From Methanomassiliicoccales archaeon (GTDB lineage Archaea; Thermoplasmatota; Thermoplasmata; Methanomassiliicoccales; UBA472), in contig DATKZX010000001.1 of NCBI GenBank assembly GCA_035527755.1, positions 1 through 63,915 of the forward strand: DNA of 63,915 nucleotides. Reading direction: 5' to 3'. Both the position numbers and the translations under genes were made by a program. Below the pieces are notes generated by a model, which ran no database searches, had not been told where the DNA came from, and saw only the letters and a list, made by a program, of their open reading frames with translations. Positions 1,158 to 63,439 of the stretch are shown here, in pieces. The stretch's first letter is position 1. Each line of letters opens with the position of its first letter.

Positions 1158-3122
1158 CTAAATCCTTCTCTTGTTGCGCCGGATGAGCAGGAGCAGGGCG
1201 ATGACCGGCAAGGGGGCGTACAGAAGAAGCCCGGGGATCGATGCCTGACCTTCAGATACCCTGACGGTCACGTTCTCGTATGCCATGTTCCCCACCGTGT
1301 CCGTGACCCGCAAGGTGACGTTATGCTCCCCGGGTATCAATGCGACGGCATGGATAGGTCCGAAAAGGTCCGATGCTCCGTCGCCATCCAGGTCCCAGGC
1401 GAACTCCGCTATGTTGGAGGTGTCATGACAGGCGGTGGCGTCCAGGAGCACGAGCTGTTGCTGGGACACCTCCAGAAAATGCCAGGGCAGGGATATCACC
1501 GGGGGAACGGCATCCCCTTTCCAGTCGTTCTCGAACAGACCGGTGAAATGATCCGCCAACTCCGTTGAACGTACCAAAAGGGCCATCTCCCGATTGCATC
1601 GCATGGAATTGTCCACCCAGTTGGCGCTGCCCACCAGAACCTGATCATCGATGATGACGCCCTTGTTGTGCAATCGTTCGAACGGAGAAGCCAGACCGGG
1701 CAGTCGGCACTCCAGGTCCCAGCCTCTTTCCGAAGCTTTGGCGTTCAAAGCTTCCGCGACCCTCTGGTTCGGTTCCTTGGTACCAAATCCGGAATCCAGG
1801 AGTATGCGCACGGTAACACCGCGGTCCGCCGCCCGGGACAAAGCGTCCATGATCTGGCCGCCATTCAACCAGTCCTCCTCGAAGTTCATCTGTTGCACCA
1901 GGATACGTTCCTGTGACCCACCCAGGGCGTTCACCAGCGTATCCTCTATCGTAAAAGGCGATGTTGATAGGAGGACGGAGGAGGTGACCTCTATGCAAGC
2001 CTTCTGGCGATCGTAGTTGAGCATTCTCCCCGGACCTCCTTCGTGAAACGGAAGACTGATGTCGAGAGGGAATACGTCCAGACCCTTTCCCCCCAGGTCC
2101 TTCTGGAAGACCGTGAGCGCGTCCCGAGCGATGGATGACGACCGGACCAGTATGGCCCATCCGCGGTTGGAGGTGAAGCTGGAGTCGGCCATGTTCTCGG
2201 AACTTACCAAAAGACGCTCCCCGTCGAACACCATGTACTTGGCATGCAGGTAGTCGTACCTACGGAACGATTCACTGGACCGCATGACCCACACGTCCAC
2301 CCCGTTCTCCTGAAGATAGTATGCCAATGCCGCCCCGTTCTCGCTGACACCTCCGACCGGCTGTCCCTCCAGCAGAAGAGTGACGTCCACGCCCCTGACG
2401 GCGGCCATGGCCAGGTGGCGGGCCAAGGTCCAGTTCTCAAGTATGTAGGTGGACACGCATATCTCTGCCAGAGCCAGGTCCACCTGCTGGACCATGACCT
2501 CCAGACCGTCGTCCGGGTACAGGACCGGAGAGGCTGAAGCGATAGACCAGGGTGATAGCAGGGAGAACGAACCGGGGACCTCCAATGACCAGGAGCCGTA
2601 TTCCGAAGGTTCGGCCGTTCTTCGCAGCATCTCACCCTTCCTGCAGGGAACTGCCGGACCGTTCCATGGGGGAGAAGGTTCGGACGTCCCGTAATAGACG
2701 ACGTCGATCAGATTCCCATTCGGGTCGAAAAGGAACACCTGGTCACCTGTATCGGCCAGCTTGAGACTCCCCTTGGTGATGGTACCGTTCGAACCCTTGT
2801 GATACACCACCTCGCCGGGGTATAGGGAGAGATATCTCTCCGGACAATCGCCCCACGTGATATCGGTCGCGGTCGGCAGCGATAAGGACCCGTTGAAGGT
2901 GACGCTTCCCTCCCCGTCGCTCAACATCCATCCTTCCAGATCGATCTGTGGGCCGTCATTGCTGATGGTGATGAACTCCCCGGGATAGGTCGGACAGAAC
3001 CGTTTGATGAAAACGCCCGACGCGCAATGAACGTCCGGAGCATCCGCGGCCTCGGCCGTGGGGGCGAACATGGATATCAGTATAATGGAAAGAACAGATA
3101 GAACGGTCAGGAGCTTTCGCAC
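1158..3122 (-). CDS. Secreted, membrane-anchored phospholipase D-like protein with lamin-tail and PKD-like domains
   Basis: A 654-residue extracytoplasmic protein starting with GTG. A signal peptide (about 1-25, cleavage near AEA-AD) precedes a lamin-tail (LTD)-like beta domain (about 33-150, with GEFITISNDG and LEGWMLSDG). Two phospholipase D repeats follow, each with a complete HxKxxxxD motif: H293/K295/D300 and H485/K487/D492, the second followed by GSANW. A PKD/Ig-like domain (about 540-622, with DGDG) leads to one transmembrane helix (about 630-647) and a basic tail (RRNKRRI). This is a surface-anchored PLD-fold hydrolase or transferase facing outside; substrate could be phosphodiester lipids, nucleic acid or wall polymers. 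LTD domains often pair with secreted nucleases, which favours a DNase-like role, but this is inference. Confidence 0.85.
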   Translation of the reverse strand: MRKLLTVLSVLSIILISMFAPTAEAADAPDVHCASGVFIKRFCPTYPGEFITISNDGPQIDLEGWMLSDGEGSVTFNGSLSLPTATDITWGDCPERYLSLYPGEVVYHKGSNGTITKGSLKLADTGDQVFLFDPNGNLIDVVYYGTSEPSPPWNGPAVPCRKGEMLRRTAEPSEYGSWSLEVPGSFSLLSPWSIASASPVLYPDDGLEVMVQQVDLALAEICVSTYILENWTLARHLAMAAVRGVDVTLLLEGQPVGGVSENGAALAYYLQENGVDVWVMRSSESFRRYDYLHAKYMVFDGERLLVSSENMADSSFTSNRGWAILVRSSSIARDALTVFQKDLGGKGLDVFPLDISLPFHEGGPGRMLNYDRQKACIEVTSSVLLSTSPFTIEDTLVNALGGSQERILVQQMNFEEDWLNGGQIMDALSRAADRGVTVRILLDSGFGTKEPNQRVAEALNAKASERGWDLECRLPGLASPFERLHNKGVIIDDQVLVGSANWVDNSMRCNREMALLVRSTELADHFTGLFENDWKGDAVPPVISLPWHFLEVSQQQLVLLDATACHDTSNIAEFAWDLDGDGASDLFGPIHAVALIPGEHNVTLRVTDTVGNMAYENVTVRVSEGQASIPGLLLYAPLPVIALLLLIRRNKRRI

Positions 3123-3173
3123 CTGAAAAAGATATTGATGGTGCCAAATAATCGAAGGTTATGCAATCAGGCT

Positions 3174-35887: not shown

Positions 35888-35975
35888 TGGAGCTGGGACC
35901 GAGATTTGAACTCGGGTGTGCGGATTACCGCCTTGTGGACTGCAGTCCGCCACATGGCCGCTCTGTCATCCCAGC
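35888..35975 (-). tRNA. tRNA-Cys (GCA) with a 14-nt intron, CCA encoded
   Basis: Folding the minus strand gives acceptor GCTGGGA/TCCCAGC, discriminator T73 (a Cys identity base), encoded CCA, T arm CCGAG-TTCAAAT-CTCGG and anticodon stem GCGGA/TCCGC. The loop closes properly to CTGCAGA, anticodon GCA, only when 14 bases (35926-35939) are removed between positions 37 and 38. Unspliced, the anticodon stem does not pair. Confidence 0.9.
35926..35939 (-). other. 14-nt tRNA-Cys intron at position 37/38
   Basis: The intron reads TCCACAAGGCGGTA. It forms a bulge-helix-loop splice signal: CTGC (32-35) pairs with intron GCGG as the four-base central helix, flanked by three-base bulges AG^T and TA^A at the two cut sites. 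This is the canonical archaeal endonuclease target with a minimal intron. Confidence 0.85.
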
Positions 35976-57019: not shown

Positions 57020-57868
57020 ATGGCCAACGTAGGGGACGTGATGACGTCCAATCCCATAGTCGCCCAGGTGCCCGGTTCACGCCAGGAGGTGCTGAAGATC
57101 ATGGTGCAGCACAATCTGACAGGGCTACCGGTGGTACGCCGCGCCGATGGTTCGCTGGCGGGAATGATCACCCGCCAGGACATATTCGACCACGCGGACG
57201 AGGACCAGGCGGCCATGATCATGCAGAGGGAACATCTGTCCATCTCCCCCAAGGACTCGGTCGAGGACGCGGCCAGGCTCCTGGTCGAAGGGGGCATTCG
57301 CCACCTCCCGGTGGTCGAAGACAACCGTCTCGTGGGCATATTGACGCCGACGGACCTGCTGTGCATCGTGGAGAAAAGAGGGATCGATGCTCCGGTGGAG
57401 AGCGTCATACGCTCGCCCTGCGTCCCCATCTTCATGGAAACGCCCTTGGCGGCGGCGGCCGTAATACTGAAGGTCTCCAAGTCCACGGCGCTGCCGGTGC
57501 TTGACGATCAGGGGCGGCTGACCGGTATCATCACCGACCGGGACATATTCAACAAGAGCTACATCGAAGGCGCCACGGTCATATCCGACATGGGCATGGC
57601 CGAGGACGAGGACCAATGGTCCTGGGAAGGACTGCGCAACGTCATGAAGCTGTGGTACGAGGTATCCAAGATCGAACTGCCGGGCATGCCCATCAAGGAG
57701 ATCATGGTCAAGGACCCCACCACCGTCTTCAAGAAGACCGCCATCTCGGAGGCGGCCCGCATCATGCGCAAGAACGACTTCGGACAGCTGCCGGTCAGGG
57801 ACACCAAGGACTGTCTGCTGGCCATGATATACGATCACGACATCATTTCCGTGCTCATAAAGGAGTAA
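57020..57868 (+). CDS. Protein with four CBS domains
   Basis: A 282-residue protein made of two Bateman pairs: CBS1-2 (about 5-120, with GLPVVRRADGSLAGMITRQD and HLPVVEDNRLVGILTPTD) and CBS3-4 (about 125-280, with ALPVLDDQGRLTGIITDRDI and FGQLPVRDTKDCLLAMIYDH). CBS pairs bind adenosine nucleotides. Its stop overlaps the glyS start (TAATG), suggesting a link between energy sensing and translation. Confidence 0.9.
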   Translation: MANVGDVMTSNPIVAQVPGSRQEVLKIMVQHNLTGLPVVRRADGSLAGMITRQDIFDHADEDQAAMIMQREHLSISPKDSVEDAARLLVEGGIRHLPVVEDNRLVGILTPTDLLCIVEKRGIDAPVESVIRSPCVPIFMETPLAAAAVILKVSKSTALPVLDDQGRLTGIITDRDIFNKSYIEGATVISDMGMAEDEDQWSWEGLRNVMKLWYEVSKIELPGMPIKEIMVKDPTTVFKKTAISEAARIMRKNDFGQLPVRDTKDCLLAMIYDHDIISVLIKE

Positions 57869-59562
57869 TGAACCAGATGAAGGAGGTCAGCTCTGGGGAC
57901 GTCCTCTCCCTGTGCAAGAGGAGAGGGTTCATCTACCCCGCCTACGAGATCTACGGCGGTATCGCCGGTCTGTATGACTACGGGCCGTTGGGCACGGCCC
58001 TGAAGAGCAATATAGTCGACCTGTGGCGCAGGATCTACGGCCTGCAGGAGGGCTTCGTAGAAATAGACGGTGTCAACGTCGGACCGGAAGCGGTGTTCAA
58101 AGCGTCCGGTCACGTGGACAACTTCACCGATCTTTCCGTTACGTGCAAAGCGTGCGGCGAATCGTTCCGCGCCGATCATTTGGCCAAGGAGTTCCACCCC
58201 AACCCCGATTCCCTGCCGAAGGAGGAACTGCAGAAGCTGCTCCGTGAGAACGACGTCCGCTGCCAGTGCGGCGGGGAGTTCGCCGACGTGGAGGAGTTCA
58301 ACCTCATGTTCAAGACCAAGATCGGCCCCGGTAACGGCCGTACGGGCTATCTGCGTCCTGAGACCGCCCAGTCCATCTTTGTCAATTATACGAACTTGTA
58401 CAGGCACTGCCGCGAGAAGCTGCCTTTCGGCGTCATTCAGGTAGGTCGCGGTTTCCGCAACGAGATATCGCCCCGGCAGGGCGTCATCCGCCTACGGGAG
58501 TTCAACATGATGGAGGCGGAGCTGTTCGTAGACCCGGAGGACAAGACGTGGCCCCGCTACGAGGGCATCAAGGGGAGGACGGTCAAGCTGGTCCCCAACG
58601 AGGGGGAGCAGGAGATCGAGACCACCTACGGGGAGGCGGTGGAGAAGGGTACCATAGGCAACGAGACCCTGGCCTACTTCATATGGGTGACCTACGACTT
58701 TCTGACCTCGGCCGGTGTCGATCCGGCCAGATTACGTTTCCGACAGCACCTCAAGACCGAGATGGCCCACTACGCCTCCGATTGCTGGGATGCTGAAGTG
58801 CTCATCAGTTTCGGGTGGACCGAGATCGTGGGCATAGCGGACCGCGGCTGCTGGGACCTCTCCCGGCACATGGAGCATTCGAAAGCGGACCTCACCGCCT
58901 TCAAGCGCTTCGAGCAACCGGAGGACGTGGAGCGGGACGTGATCCGCCCGAAGTTCGGGGCCTTAGGACCAAAGTTTAAAGGGGCCGCTGGTGACATAAA
59001 GAAGCAATTAGAGGTGATGGAAGCTTCGAAGGTGCACGAGGGAACGGTGACCGTGGTGGTCAACGGAGAGAACGTGGAACTTGACGGCACTTACTTCGAG
59101 ATGGTAAGGGTCAAGGAGAAGGTCAACGGCGTGAAGGTCACGCCGCACGTTATCGAACCGTCCCACGGCCTGGACCGCATATTGTACAGCTGCCTGGAGC
59201 ATGCCTACGGTGAGAGGGACGGGTACGTGACCCTGGGCCTGAAGCCGACGGTGGCGCCGATCAAGGTGGGCGTGTTCCCACTGATGTCCAAGGACGGCAT
59301 GGAGGAGGTGGCCATGGCCCTGGACCTGGCATTGCGCCAGGAGGGGATAACCACCCATTACGATGATTCCGGGTCCATCGGGCGAAGGTACGCTCGCATG
59401 GACGAAGCGGGGACGCCCTGGTGCGTCACCGTGGACTATGAGACCCTGGACAAGGGAGATGTGACCATAAGGGACCGGGACAGCACCGAACAGGTGCGGA
59501 TCTCGGCCGATGAGGTCGTGACCTTCGTAAGACAGAGGCTGCGACACGAACTCTCATCCTAA
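57868..59562 (+). CDS. glyS: Glycyl-tRNA synthetase (alpha2, archaeal/eukaryal type)
   Basis: A 564-residue class II synthetase. It begins DVLSLCKRRGFIYPAYEIYG and YDYGPLGTALKSNI, has FKTKIGPGNGRTGYLRPETA and motif 2 VGRGFRNEISPRQGVIRLRE, and motif 3 EPSHGLDRILYS, then the anticodon domain. Its start overlaps the CBS-protein stop. The CBS/HPF gene follows 22 bases later. Confidence 0.95.
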   Translation: MNQMKEVSSGDVLSLCKRRGFIYPAYEIYGGIAGLYDYGPLGTALKSNIVDLWRRIYGLQEGFVEIDGVNVGPEAVFKASGHVDNFTDLSVTCKACGESFRADHLAKEFHPNPDSLPKEELQKLLRENDVRCQCGGEFADVEEFNLMFKTKIGPGNGRTGYLRPETAQSIFVNYTNLYRHCREKLPFGVIQVGRGFRNEISPRQGVIRLREFNMMEAELFVDPEDKTWPRYEGIKGRTVKLVPNEGEQEIETTYGEAVEKGTIGNETLAYFIWVTYDFLTSAGVDPARLRFRQHLKTEMAHYASDCWDAEVLISFGWTEIVGIADRGCWDLSRHMEHSKADLTAFKRFEQPEDVERDVIRPKFGALGPKFKGAAGDIKKQLEVMEASKVHEGTVTVVVNGENVELDGTYFEMVRVKEKVNGVKVTPHVIEPSHGLDRILYSCLEHAYGERDGYVTLGLKPTVAPIKVGVFPLMSKDGMEEVAMALDLALRQEGITTHYDDSGSIGRRYARMDEAGTPWCVTVDYETLDKGDVTIRDRDSTEQVRISADEVVTFVRQRLRHELSS

Positions 59563-59584
59563 ACGACGAGGAAGGTGAGCCAAA

Positions 59585-60772
59585 ATGGTAGGAGAAAGCA
59601 TCGAGGGAATGAAGAAGAGAGAACTGCTCAGGTCTCTGATCGACTCCAACAGGGTCGAGGACCTGATGAACAAGAAGTTCGAGACCGTAGACCCAGAGAT
59701 GGCCCTCTCCGAGGTGGTGGCCAAGATGCGGTCGGCCGACCTGCATGAGATCCCGGTGGTGGAGGGCAAGAAGCTGCAGGGAGTGGTCAGCTACGGCACG
59801 GTCATCAGGAAGAAGAGCCTGGTGCTCGGAACCAAGGCCAAGAGCATGATGGAGAGCACCCCGGAAATAACTCTGGACACTCCGGTCACCGAGATAGCCG
59901 AGCATTTCCTTTCCTCGGGATACCGGCAGCTGCCGGTGACCAAGGGGAAGCTGATCCAAGGCATCATCACCCGCGCCCACGTCATATCCGTGCTTCCCAA
60001 GCTGAAGGACGTGAAGACCGTGAAGGTCGGCGACCTGATGAGCGACGACGCCCATTCGGTGCATGAGAAGGACCACATCAAGAGCGCCATGTCGCTGATG
60101 AGGCAGCTGGAGGTGCGCACGGTACCCGTGGTCGATGATTACGACCGGCTGACGGGCATCATCGGCATCAAGGACATCGTACAGTACTCCTGGACCGGGT
60201 CCGGTACGCCCAACCAAGGCCGTATGGACAAGGCCGGCGTCAATAACCCGGTGGAGCTGGAGGTGCGTTCGCTGATGCACAACTCCCCGGTCACCCTGGG
60301 TTCGGACGCTCCCCTGACCGAGGCCATCGGGATCATGGTGGACAAGAACATCTCCACCATCCCCATCGTGAAGGGCGACAGGATGGTCGGCATCATCACC
60401 AAGTACGACATACTGGAGATGGTGGCGTCCGTTCGCAACAGGGACATGGTCTACACCCAGATCTCCGGTCTGGAGGAAGAGGACCGTTTCTCCCTGGACA
60501 GCATGGAGAAGGAGATACAGTCCGGACTGGCCAAGATCGCCAAGTTCACTCGGCCGCTCTTGTTCAACGTACACGTCAGCAAGTACAACGGCGGCGGCAA
60601 CAACGCCAAGTACTCGCTGACCGGCCGTCTGAGCACCGAGAACTCCCAGTTCATGGCCAAGGCCGTCGATTGGAGCCTGGGACAGGCCACCGTGGAACTG
60701 ATGGACAAGCTGGACCGCATCGTCAAGGGGAAGAAGGAGCAGGACGAGCGCAAAAAGAAGACAATACGCTGA
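59585..60772 (+). CDS. Four-CBS-domain protein with C-terminal HPF/RaiA-like domain
   Basis: A 395-residue protein. Four CBS domains (about 20-75, 80-140, 148-205 and 232-290; e.g. EIPVVEGKKLQGVVSYGTV, TVPVVDDYDRLTGIIGIKDI) are followed by a 100-residue domain whose pattern (MEKEIQSGLAKIAKF, LLFNVHVSKYN, AKYSLTGRLST, FMAKAVDWSLGQATVELMDK, KGKKEQDERKKK) resembles hibernation factor HPF/RaiA. A nucleotide-gated ribosome-binding factor is the natural reading; the HPF match is by eye. It lies between glyS and valS. Confidence 0.8.
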   Translation: MVGESIEGMKKRELLRSLIDSNRVEDLMNKKFETVDPEMALSEVVAKMRSADLHEIPVVEGKKLQGVVSYGTVIRKKSLVLGTKAKSMMESTPEITLDTPVTEIAEHFLSSGYRQLPVTKGKLIQGIITRAHVISVLPKLKDVKTVKVGDLMSDDAHSVHEKDHIKSAMSLMRQLEVRTVPVVDDYDRLTGIIGIKDIVQYSWTGSGTPNQGRMDKAGVNNPVELEVRSLMHNSPVTLGSDAPLTEAIGIMVDKNISTIPIVKGDRMVGIITKYDILEMVASVRNRDMVYTQISGLEEEDRFSLDSMEKEIQSGLAKIAKFTRPLLFNVHVSKYNGGGNNAKYSLTGRLSTENSQFMAKAVDWSLGQATVELMDKLDRIVKGKKEQDERKKKTIR

Positions 60773-60785
60773 GCTCCAGCTCAGT

Positions 60786-60797
60786 AACCTTTTTTAA
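60786..60797 (+). promoter_or_regulatory. TATA-like promoter element of valS
   Basis: CCTTTTTTAAACC lies about 30 bases before the valS ATG at 60824, the spacing expected for a leaderless archaeal transcript. It could equally serve as a U-tract terminator for the CBS/HPF gene just upstream. Confidence 0.4.
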
Positions 60798-60823
60798 ACC
60801 TCTTTTCATATCTTCTCCAGTCT

Positions 60824-63439
60824 ATGTCACAATACGAGGCGATCCCCACTGAAAGGAAGTGGCAGAAGCAGTGGAAGGACTGGGAGCTCTACAAGTTCGA
60901 TCTTGACTCCGATCGACCGGTCTATTCCATCGACAATCCCCCGCGCTACGCTTCCGGCGCATTGCATCTGGGTCACGCCACCGGTTACTCTCTCATCGAT
61001 TTCGCCGCCCGCTATCGTCGGCAGCGGGGCTACAACGTCATGTTCCCGTTGTGCTTCGACGTGAACGGCACGCCGGTCGAGGTGCGCGTGGAGAAGAAGT
61101 TCGGCATCAACAAGTATTCCGTTCCTCGCCAGGAGTACATCAAGATGTGCGAGGAGTACGCCAACTCCTTCATCTCCTCCATGATCTCCCAGTTCGAGTT
61201 GCTGGGCGAGAGCATGGACGCCTCGGTTTACTATCAGACGGACGCTCCCTACTACCGGCGCATCACCCAGATATCCTTCATCAAGATGTTGGCGAAGGGG
61301 CTGGCCTACAAAGGTGAGTACCCGGTCAACTGGTGCCCCCGGTGCATCACGGCGTTGGCTGACGCCGAGGTCGAATACGAGCAGAACGTCACCAAGCTCA
61401 ACTACATCCGTTTCGCCGTGAAGGACGGCGAGGACATCCTCATCGCCACGACGCGCCCGGAGCTCATCTGCACCTGCCAGACCATCGCCGTGCATCCCAC
61501 GGACGTGCGCTATTCGGAACTGGTGGGTAAGTGGGTCATCACCCCGCTGTTCGAAAAGATGGTGATGGTGATCGCCGACGAGAAGGTGGACCCGGACTTC
61601 GGCTCGGGCATCGTCATGATCTGCACCATAGGCGATAAAACGGATCTGGAATGGGTCATGAAGTACAAGCTGCCCTTGGACAAGGGTATCGACGAAGAGG
61701 GGCGCATGACGTCGCTGGCGGGCCCGTACGAAGGAATGCCCGTCAAGGACGCCAGGGCGAAGGTGATCGAGGACCTCAAGGCGAAAGGGCTTCTCCTCAA
61801 CCAGGAGGACCAGCCGCAGAACGTCAGCGTCTGCTGGAGATGCCACGCGCCCATCGAGTATCTGCAGGTGAACCAATGGTTCATCCGCACCATGGACTTC
61901 AAGAAGGAGGTATTGGCGAAAGCGGACAGCATCAAGTGGTTCCCGGAGTTCATGAAAGTGCGCTTGCAGGATTGGGTGAACTCCCTGCAGTGGGACTGGG
62001 TGGTTTCCCGGCAGCGTTACTTCGCCACGCCCATACCGGTGTGGGAATGCCAGAACTGTAATTACGTTCTACCGGCGCGCGAGGAGGACTGCTACATCGA
62101 CGTGACCGTCACGCCTCCGTACCTTGAGAAGTGCCCCGACTGCGGCGGCGAGCTAAAGGGATGCCCGGACGTCTTCGATACCTGGATGGATTCATCCGTT
62201 TCCGCGCTGTACAATACTTTCTGGCAAAGGGACGAGGAGCGCTTCAAGAAGATGTTCCCCATGTCCCTGAGGCCGCAGTCCCACGATATCATTCGGACAT
62301 GGGCGTTCTATTCCATTCTGAGGGAGCATCTGCTGACGGACGAGATCCCTTGGGAGCACATCATGATCCACGGGTTCATCATGGCGCCGGACGGCACTCC
62401 GATGCACACCTCGACGGGCAACGTCATCGACCCCATGCCTTTACTGGAGACGTACGGCACGGACGCGCTGCGATACTACGCTTGTACCTGCTCGTTGGGT
62501 GAGGACCATGCTTTCAGAGAGAGGGACGTGGTGCACGGCAAGAAGCTCTGCACCAAGATGTGGAACCTGGGCAAGCTGATCGAGATGACCGTTACGGAAA
62601 AGCCGGAACGGGTGCAGCTGAAGCCCATCGACCGCTGGATCATGAGCCGCTTCACCCGGGTGGTGGAAGCGGTCACCGGTTACTATGAGACGTACAATTT
62701 CGATAAGGCCATGAGGGAAGTGGAGAACTTCGCCTGGAAGGAGTTCGCCGACCATTACGTGGAGATGTCCAAGTACCGGACGAGGGACGGGGACAAGTCG
62801 GTCAAGTATACTCTTTACACCATCTATCTGGGCATATTGAAGATGATGGCGCCGATGCTTCCGCACGTGACCGAGGACGCCTACCAGCCGTTCGCGGAGA
62901 TGGACGGTTCGAAGAGCATACATGTCAGCAAGTGGCCGGAGGCGGAGCGCATAGACGAGGAGGCCGAAGCCAAGGGCGAACTTACCAAAGAGGTCATCGC
63001 CGCCGTACGCAACTGGAAGGCGGAGAAGAAATACCCCTTGAACAAGGAACTGCTGGCGGTGGAGATCGTCGGTGACGGTGCCTTTGCTTTGAAAGGTTAC
63101 GAGAACGATATCGCCAGGACGGTTCGGGCGGATCGTCTGGACCTGCTGGAGAAAGCGCAATTGGACCGCTGCCCCGTCAAGGTCAAGCCGGTGCACGCCA
63201 AGATCGGCCCCCTGTTCAAGACCCAGGCGGGGAACGTGATCGCGGAGATCGCCACCATGGACCCCGATGACGTCATGAAACGCATAGCGGAAGGCGGGTT
63301 CGAAGTGCTCCTGCAGGACGGACGCATGGCCATGATCACCGACGAGCTGGTGGAAGTGGTGTGCGAGATGCGCTATCAGGGCAAGTCCGTGGAGACCATT
63401 CAGATCGGGGACCTGTTAGTGGTGGTAGAAGTCAAGTGA
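60824..63439 (+). CDS. valS: Valyl-tRNA synthetase
   Basis: An 871-residue class Ia synthetase. HIGH is HLGH (48-51) in NPPRYASGALHLGHATGYS; editing (CP1) domain includes IATTRPELICTC; zinc-like CPRC, CWRC, CQNC and CPDC pairs are present, and WDWVVSRQRYFATPIPVW is typical. The KMSKS loop, however, reads PMHTSTGN (526-533), with neither usual lysine, although STGN is kept. The C-terminal helical anticodon domain is complete. A T-run follows the stop. Confidence 0.9.
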   Translation: MSQYEAIPTERKWQKQWKDWELYKFDLDSDRPVYSIDNPPRYASGALHLGHATGYSLIDFAARYRRQRGYNVMFPLCFDVNGTPVEVRVEKKFGINKYSVPRQEYIKMCEEYANSFISSMISQFELLGESMDASVYYQTDAPYYRRITQISFIKMLAKGLAYKGEYPVNWCPRCITALADAEVEYEQNVTKLNYIRFAVKDGEDILIATTRPELICTCQTIAVHPTDVRYSELVGKWVITPLFEKMVMVIADEKVDPDFGSGIVMICTIGDKTDLEWVMKYKLPLDKGIDEEGRMTSLAGPYEGMPVKDARAKVIEDLKAKGLLLNQEDQPQNVSVCWRCHAPIEYLQVNQWFIRTMDFKKEVLAKADSIKWFPEFMKVRLQDWVNSLQWDWVVSRQRYFATPIPVWECQNCNYVLPAREEDCYIDVTVTPPYLEKCPDCGGELKGCPDVFDTWMDSSVSALYNTFWQRDEERFKKMFPMSLRPQSHDIIRTWAFYSILREHLLTDEIPWEHIMIHGFIMAPDGTPMHTSTGNVIDPMPLLETYGTDALRYYACTCSLGEDHAFRERDVVHGKKLCTKMWNLGKLIEMTVTEKPERVQLKPIDRWIMSRFTRVVEAVTGYYETYNFDKAMREVENFAWKEFADHYVEMSKYRTRDGDKSVKYTLYTIYLGILKMMAPMLPHVTEDAYQPFAEMDGSKSIHVSKWPEAERIDEEAEAKGELTKEVIAAVRNWKAEKKYPLNKELLAVEIVGDGAFALKGYENDIARTVRADRLDLLEKAQLDRCPVKVKPVHAKIGPLFKTQAGNVIAEIATMDPDDVMKRIAEGGFEVLLQDGRMAMITDELVEVVCEMRYQGKSVETIQIGDLLVVVEVK

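Follow-up and report, generated by a model that had tools for sequence, protein, structure and literature searches.

A probable HibA ribosome hibernation factor encoded between glyS and valS in a Methanomassiliicoccales archaeon

In the window (the whole stretch of DNA that was analysed, 63,915 nucleotides of a Methanomassiliicoccales contig), an open reading frame between glyS and valS joins four CBS domains to a small C-terminal domain. This raises the question whether the product is, as an earlier note on this DNA had suggested, a fusion of CBS and HPF domains that silences ribosomes, and whether adenine nucleotides would gate it. With regard to identity, sequence comparison and fold prediction make it very probable that the gene is the HibA of a Methanomassiliicoccales archaeon and a typical representative of an established family. 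HibA, a hibernation factor built from a CBS module and an HPF/RaiA domain, occurs in 47% of archaeal genomes (PMC13324472, Nat Commun 27 April 2026). In stressed P. abyssi cells it was seen by cryo-EM on the majority of hibernating-like 70S particles, and it inhibits translation in vitro, while T. barophilus needs it for normal stationary-phase recovery and 70S pools in vivo (PMC13324472). Its traits are an N-terminal module of about 270 residues with four CBS domains, a long insert between CBS3 and CBS4 (the PTC loop) and two archaeal-specific insertions in the HPF domain, and it binds the mRNA/tRNA channel of the 30S subunit (PMC13324472). Neither the combined CBS and HPF/RaiA architecture nor its function is therefore new, both having been published in April 2026 (PMC13324472). 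The present case is a sequence-only rediscovery of the family published in that month, in a lineage of mesophilic methanogens akin to those of the gut. To our knowledge, no HibA member from Thermoplasmatota has been tested on ribosomes.

Gene layout and relation to P. abyssi HibA

The gene starts with ATG and runs for 395 codons. It lies between glyS and valS, as the earlier note had stated, with gaps of 22 and 51 bases respectively. The start is backed by relatives (33-82% identity), among them homologues from various genera of the order, that align from or near residue 1. The features of the locus are as follows.

57020..57868, + strand: stand-alone four-CBS protein, HhpR/PH1780-like (NCBIfam HhpR; phmmer to PH1780, 2yzq)
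57868..59562, + strand: glyS, glycyl-tRNA synthetase, upstream neighbour (open reading frame; conserved position in sampled loci)
59570..59579, + strand: putative Shine-Dalgarno-like GGAAGGTGAG upstream of the hibA ATG (from sequence)
59585..60772, + strand: hibA homologue, whole gene, 395 aa (open reading frame; collinear full-length profile match, E=5.3e-46, and phmmer match, E=5.8e-19, to 9sr9 chain H, taken to be P. abyssi HibA)
59654..60424, + strand: CBS module (CM), four CBS domains (PF00571 over cut-off; AlphaFold secondary structure; Foldseek to ribosome-bound CBS-module proteins and AMPK gamma)
59654-59809, + strand: CBS1, residues ~24-75 (PF00571)
59849-59998, + strand: CBS2, residues 89-138 (PF00571)
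60026-60187, + strand: CBS3, residues 148-201 (PF00571)
60191..60262, + strand: loop or insert between CBS3 and CBS4, residues 203-226, in the place of the P. abyssi HibA PTC loop (alignment; low pLDDT at 212-219; putative role after PMC13324472)
60263-60424, + strand: CBS4, residues 227-280 (PF00571)
60407..60409, + strand: Asp275 of CBS4, expected to bind ribose (invariant in 44/44 homologues; putative role from CBS-domain knowledge and PMC13324472)
60452..60772, + strand: HPF/RaiA-like C-terminal domain and basic tail, residues 290-395 (PF02482, E=0.002; AF2; Foldseek)
60824..63439, + strand: valS, valyl-tRNA synthetase, downstream neighbour (Pfam; conserved position)

The four CBS domains of the product are recognized by Pfam at E=1.7e-46, and the protein ends in a basic tail (...KGKKEQDERKKKTIR), as had been described before. 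About 20 additional N-terminal residues are modelled as a helix by AlphaFold. Where hibA ends, ahead of valS (window 60766-60800), an inverted repeat, TGAGCTCCAGCTCA, precedes TTTTTTAAA; this may be a terminator or else a promoter element of valS.

The best PDB relative is the 392-aa chain H of 9sr9, which carries the file name 'Dehydrogenase' and is taken to be the P. abyssi HibA (Q9UYR4) of PMC13324472, a paper that mentions 9SR9. The profile alignment pairs residues 22-390 with residues 4-380 of this chain, so that homology spans both domains in the same order. Residues 203-226 co-align with the P. abyssi insert between CBS3 and CBS4, an insert that varies in length in family f2 of the order. 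A second PDB chain, 9l96_a (406 aa), shows this architecture too when aligned. The proposed role in ribosome hibernation is supported by the homology to P. abyssi HibA; in this role the two parts of the protein together would stop translation and shield 70S ribosomes until cells grow again.

Assignment of the C-terminal domain

A comparison of residues 290-395 with HPF/RaiA profiles had been proposed as a check: PF02482 (Ribosomal_S30AE) matched the C-terminal part alone (residues 290-394) at E=0.002, but its 19.3 bits fall below the gathering score of 23.7 bits. As the domain scores under this cut-off, a PF02482 search of the whole genome returned no match. A single-sequence phmmer search with the domain retrieved one HPF at E=0.78, and this weakness made profile and fold searches necessary for the assignment. 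An alignment of 42 homologous C-terminal domains underlay a profile, a Pfam scan of every member and the fold tests described below. In the Pfam scan PF02482 was by far the commonest family (13 of 42 members, best E=4.8e-4; 3 for the runner-up). The profile scored 17.0 bits against the C-terminal fragment of P. abyssi HibA, where the reported shuffles, from a set of 5000, reached 8.2 at most, and 15.3 bits against a P. urativorans RaiA fragment (shuffle maximum 12.2). The 9l96 fragment gave no support, with 6.3 bits and five shuffles equally high, and the match to the P. abyssi C-terminal domain alone was weak (E=0.18). Matches of the profile to VPS4/SKD1, covering 25 residues and absent from the Foldseek matches listed, were taken as chance.

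The AlphaFold2 model of the domain (pLDDT 90.4, pTM 0.82) arranges strands (E) and helices (H) as E H E E E H, which is also reported for HibA and bacterial HPF/RaiA. Each of the 25 Foldseek matches in the PDB with E<=0.001, and each of ranks 1-35, was an HPF, a RaiA, a protein Y or a plastid form of these; the predicted structure, a check on which the earlier note had staked its reading, is thus HPF-like. With the whole chain as query, Foldseek returned mostly CBS modules and AMPK gamma, which are uninformative on this domain. Nine residues of the HPF domain are invariant across the order (R286, Q292, G295, P324, H330, K342, Y343, W363 and K384), and the regions of the two archaeal-specific HPF insertions, compared with P. 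abyssi HibA alone, align to it with gaps of one residue only. By profile and predicted fold, the C-terminal domain is clearly assigned to HPF, and the supposed CBS-HPF fusion is borne out by this fold together with the four CBS domains and the full-length match to P. abyssi HibA.

The sub-threshold PF02482 score could alternatively reflect an unrelated CBS-domain regulator, for example of the adjoining tRNA synthetase genes, with a C-terminal alpha/beta domain that merely resembles HPF. Such a protein would also suit the HhpR-like neighbour at 57020-57868, as that gene and hibA both flank glyS. Fold matches exclusively to HPF/RaiA, the end-to-end match to a ribosome-bound HibA and the basic helix and tail render this explanation extremely improbable, and the gene is treated as hibA in what follows.

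The nucleotide site and the question of gating

An Asp in CBS domains usually contacts ribose. Ribose-type Asp residues occur in the window protein in CBS3 (D197) and CBS4 (D275) only, while CBS1 and CBS2 are without one. D275 is invariant (44 of 44 homologues) and its flanking residues Thr272 and Tyr274 are conserved; at position 197 the same homologues have D 26 times and E or Q nine times each. The invariant D275 and the lack of such residues in CBS1 and CBS2 fit the single CBS3/CBS4 site of P. abyssi HibA, and adenine nucleotides probably bind at CBS3/CBS4 of the window protein as well. Because 18 of the 44 homologues carry E or Q in place of D197, binding of nucleotides is perhaps not a feature of every member.

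The earlier note had gone further and had suggested that energy charge is coupled directly to the silencing of ribosomes. The binding part of this claim agrees with P. abyssi, where the CBS module of HibA has one adenylate site, at CBS3/CBS4, with Kd values of 12 uM for AMP, 65 uM for ADP and 113 uM for ATP (PMC13324472). The gating part does not: AMP left the ribosome-bound states of P. abyssi HibA and their distribution unchanged, ATP added one minor state, and neither nucleotide shifted the positions that HibA takes on the ribosome (PMC13324472). Because both nucleotides left these states largely unaltered, an energy-charge switch is a possibility and not a finding. Perhaps AMP turns ribosome binding on, or ATP turns it off, through CBS3/CBS4 in this lineage in particular. 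The CBS module, the conserved Asp275 and Thr272/Tyr274 and the P. abyssi affinities would allow for such a switch, but given the behaviour of the P. abyssi ribosome classes and the non-conserved D197 of CBS3 it is considered unlikely.

Conserved neighbourhood, inheritance and known systems

The order amidohydrolase - USP - four-CBS gene - glyS - hibA - valS is kept in nearly all of 20 loci examined, two of which are without valS inside the fetched stretch, while some stretches cut the amidohydrolase. The four-CBS gene, whose stop overlaps the glyS start in the window, is conserved in 20 of 20. Its product matches the NCBIfam HhpR model over residues 4-281 of 282 (E=2.5e-45, below the model's own cut-off) and PH1780 (2yzq) by phmmer (E=9.6e-34), and would by inference be of the CM-3 type of PMC13324472. 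The CM-3 family, including HhpR, co-occurs with HibA and has a presumed role in transcription, and an exclusion pattern is reported for CM-1/2/4/5 (PMC13324472). With the neighbour placed in CM-3, its co-occurrence with HibA here would leave that pattern unbroken. The order-wide synteny is an addition of this work, being absent from the main text of the HibA paper (PMC13324472).

Elsewhere in the window, ARAGORN called a tRNA with a two-base anticodon (gc) at 35888-35975 (- strand); Rfam at gathering threshold found no tRNA in the window, and the call is probably false or degenerate. An open frame at 1161-3158 (- strand) has two phospholipase D-like stretches, its best NCBIfam match, to DISARM DrmC, lying below cut-off.

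The host genome of the window (1.68 Mb) is 99.7% complete, and its named relatives are Methanomassiliicoccales MAGs, e.g. UBA472 (81% identity). A tree of 44 homologues tracks families with five changes for six groups, the least possible, so that hibA is inherited vertically in the order. In the phylum, the C-terminal profile matched 85 of 243 sampled genomes (71 of 139 good ones). Two genomes of the same genus are without hibA, but an orthologous glyS is lacking from them too, so that gaps in the assemblies, and not loss of the gene, seem to explain its absence.

Family f6, to which Methanomassiliicoccus MAGs belong, has two full-length hibA copies in tandem between glyS and valS at the following loci.

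L037, 4372-6913: tandem hibA pair
L038, 4678-7219: tandem hibA pair
L039, 4106-6650: tandem hibA pair
L040, 4109-6661: tandem hibA pair
L041, 4021-6560: tandem hibA pair

In the tree the downstream copies of f6 fall together in a clade (support 98), and a second clade (99) unites the upstream and single copies. This pattern suggests a single ancient duplication at the root of the family. The nine invariant HPF residues hold in those downstream copies that are included in the alignment. This ancient duplication, too, is added here and absent from the main text of the HibA paper (PMC13324472). One f2 genome has three HPF-domain matches, one beside a glyS match and two close together on another contig (G204:C3:109754-111412, G204:C4:16750-17079). 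Taken furthest, Methanomassiliicoccales HibA could be an AMP/ATP-responsive switch co-regulated with tRNA charging through the array of four-CBS gene, glyS, hibA and valS, with tandem paralogues splitting labour between ribosome states or nucleotide signals; this is regarded as very unlikely. As a further HibA, with its conserved gene order and the paralogue pairs that exist in nature, the protein offers a setting in which the role of the CBS nucleotide site could be tested.

Among known systems, P. abyssi HibA (Q9UYR4, PDB 9sr9) shares with the window protein the order of four CBS domains and HPF/RaiA, a similar length (392 vs 395 aa), the CBS3-CBS4 insert and the basic C-terminal helix. It differs in its low sequence identity, the window protein coming from a different phylum (Thermoplasmatota), having about 20 extra N-terminal residues and being encoded in a tRNA-synthetase neighbourhood. 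Bacterial and plastid HPF, RaiA and protein Y resemble the C-terminal domain in fold and in the amphipathic basic last helix, although identity in structural alignments is about 11-23% and the bacterial proteins are without a CBS module. Dri of Pyrobaculum calidifontis (9e6q) and Methanosarcina SriA-SriD (9znf, 9zng, 9zni) likewise place CBS modules on archaeal ribosomes and give strong fold matches to the N-terminal part, but only CBS residues and no HPF/RaiA domain were matched; Dri has two four-CBS modules without an HPF domain, whereas the window protein has one module and HPF. Proteins of the HhpR/PH1780 type (CM-3), one of which is encoded two genes upstream of hibA, also have four CBS domains but no HPF domain, and HhpR is a transcriptional regulator (PMC13324472).
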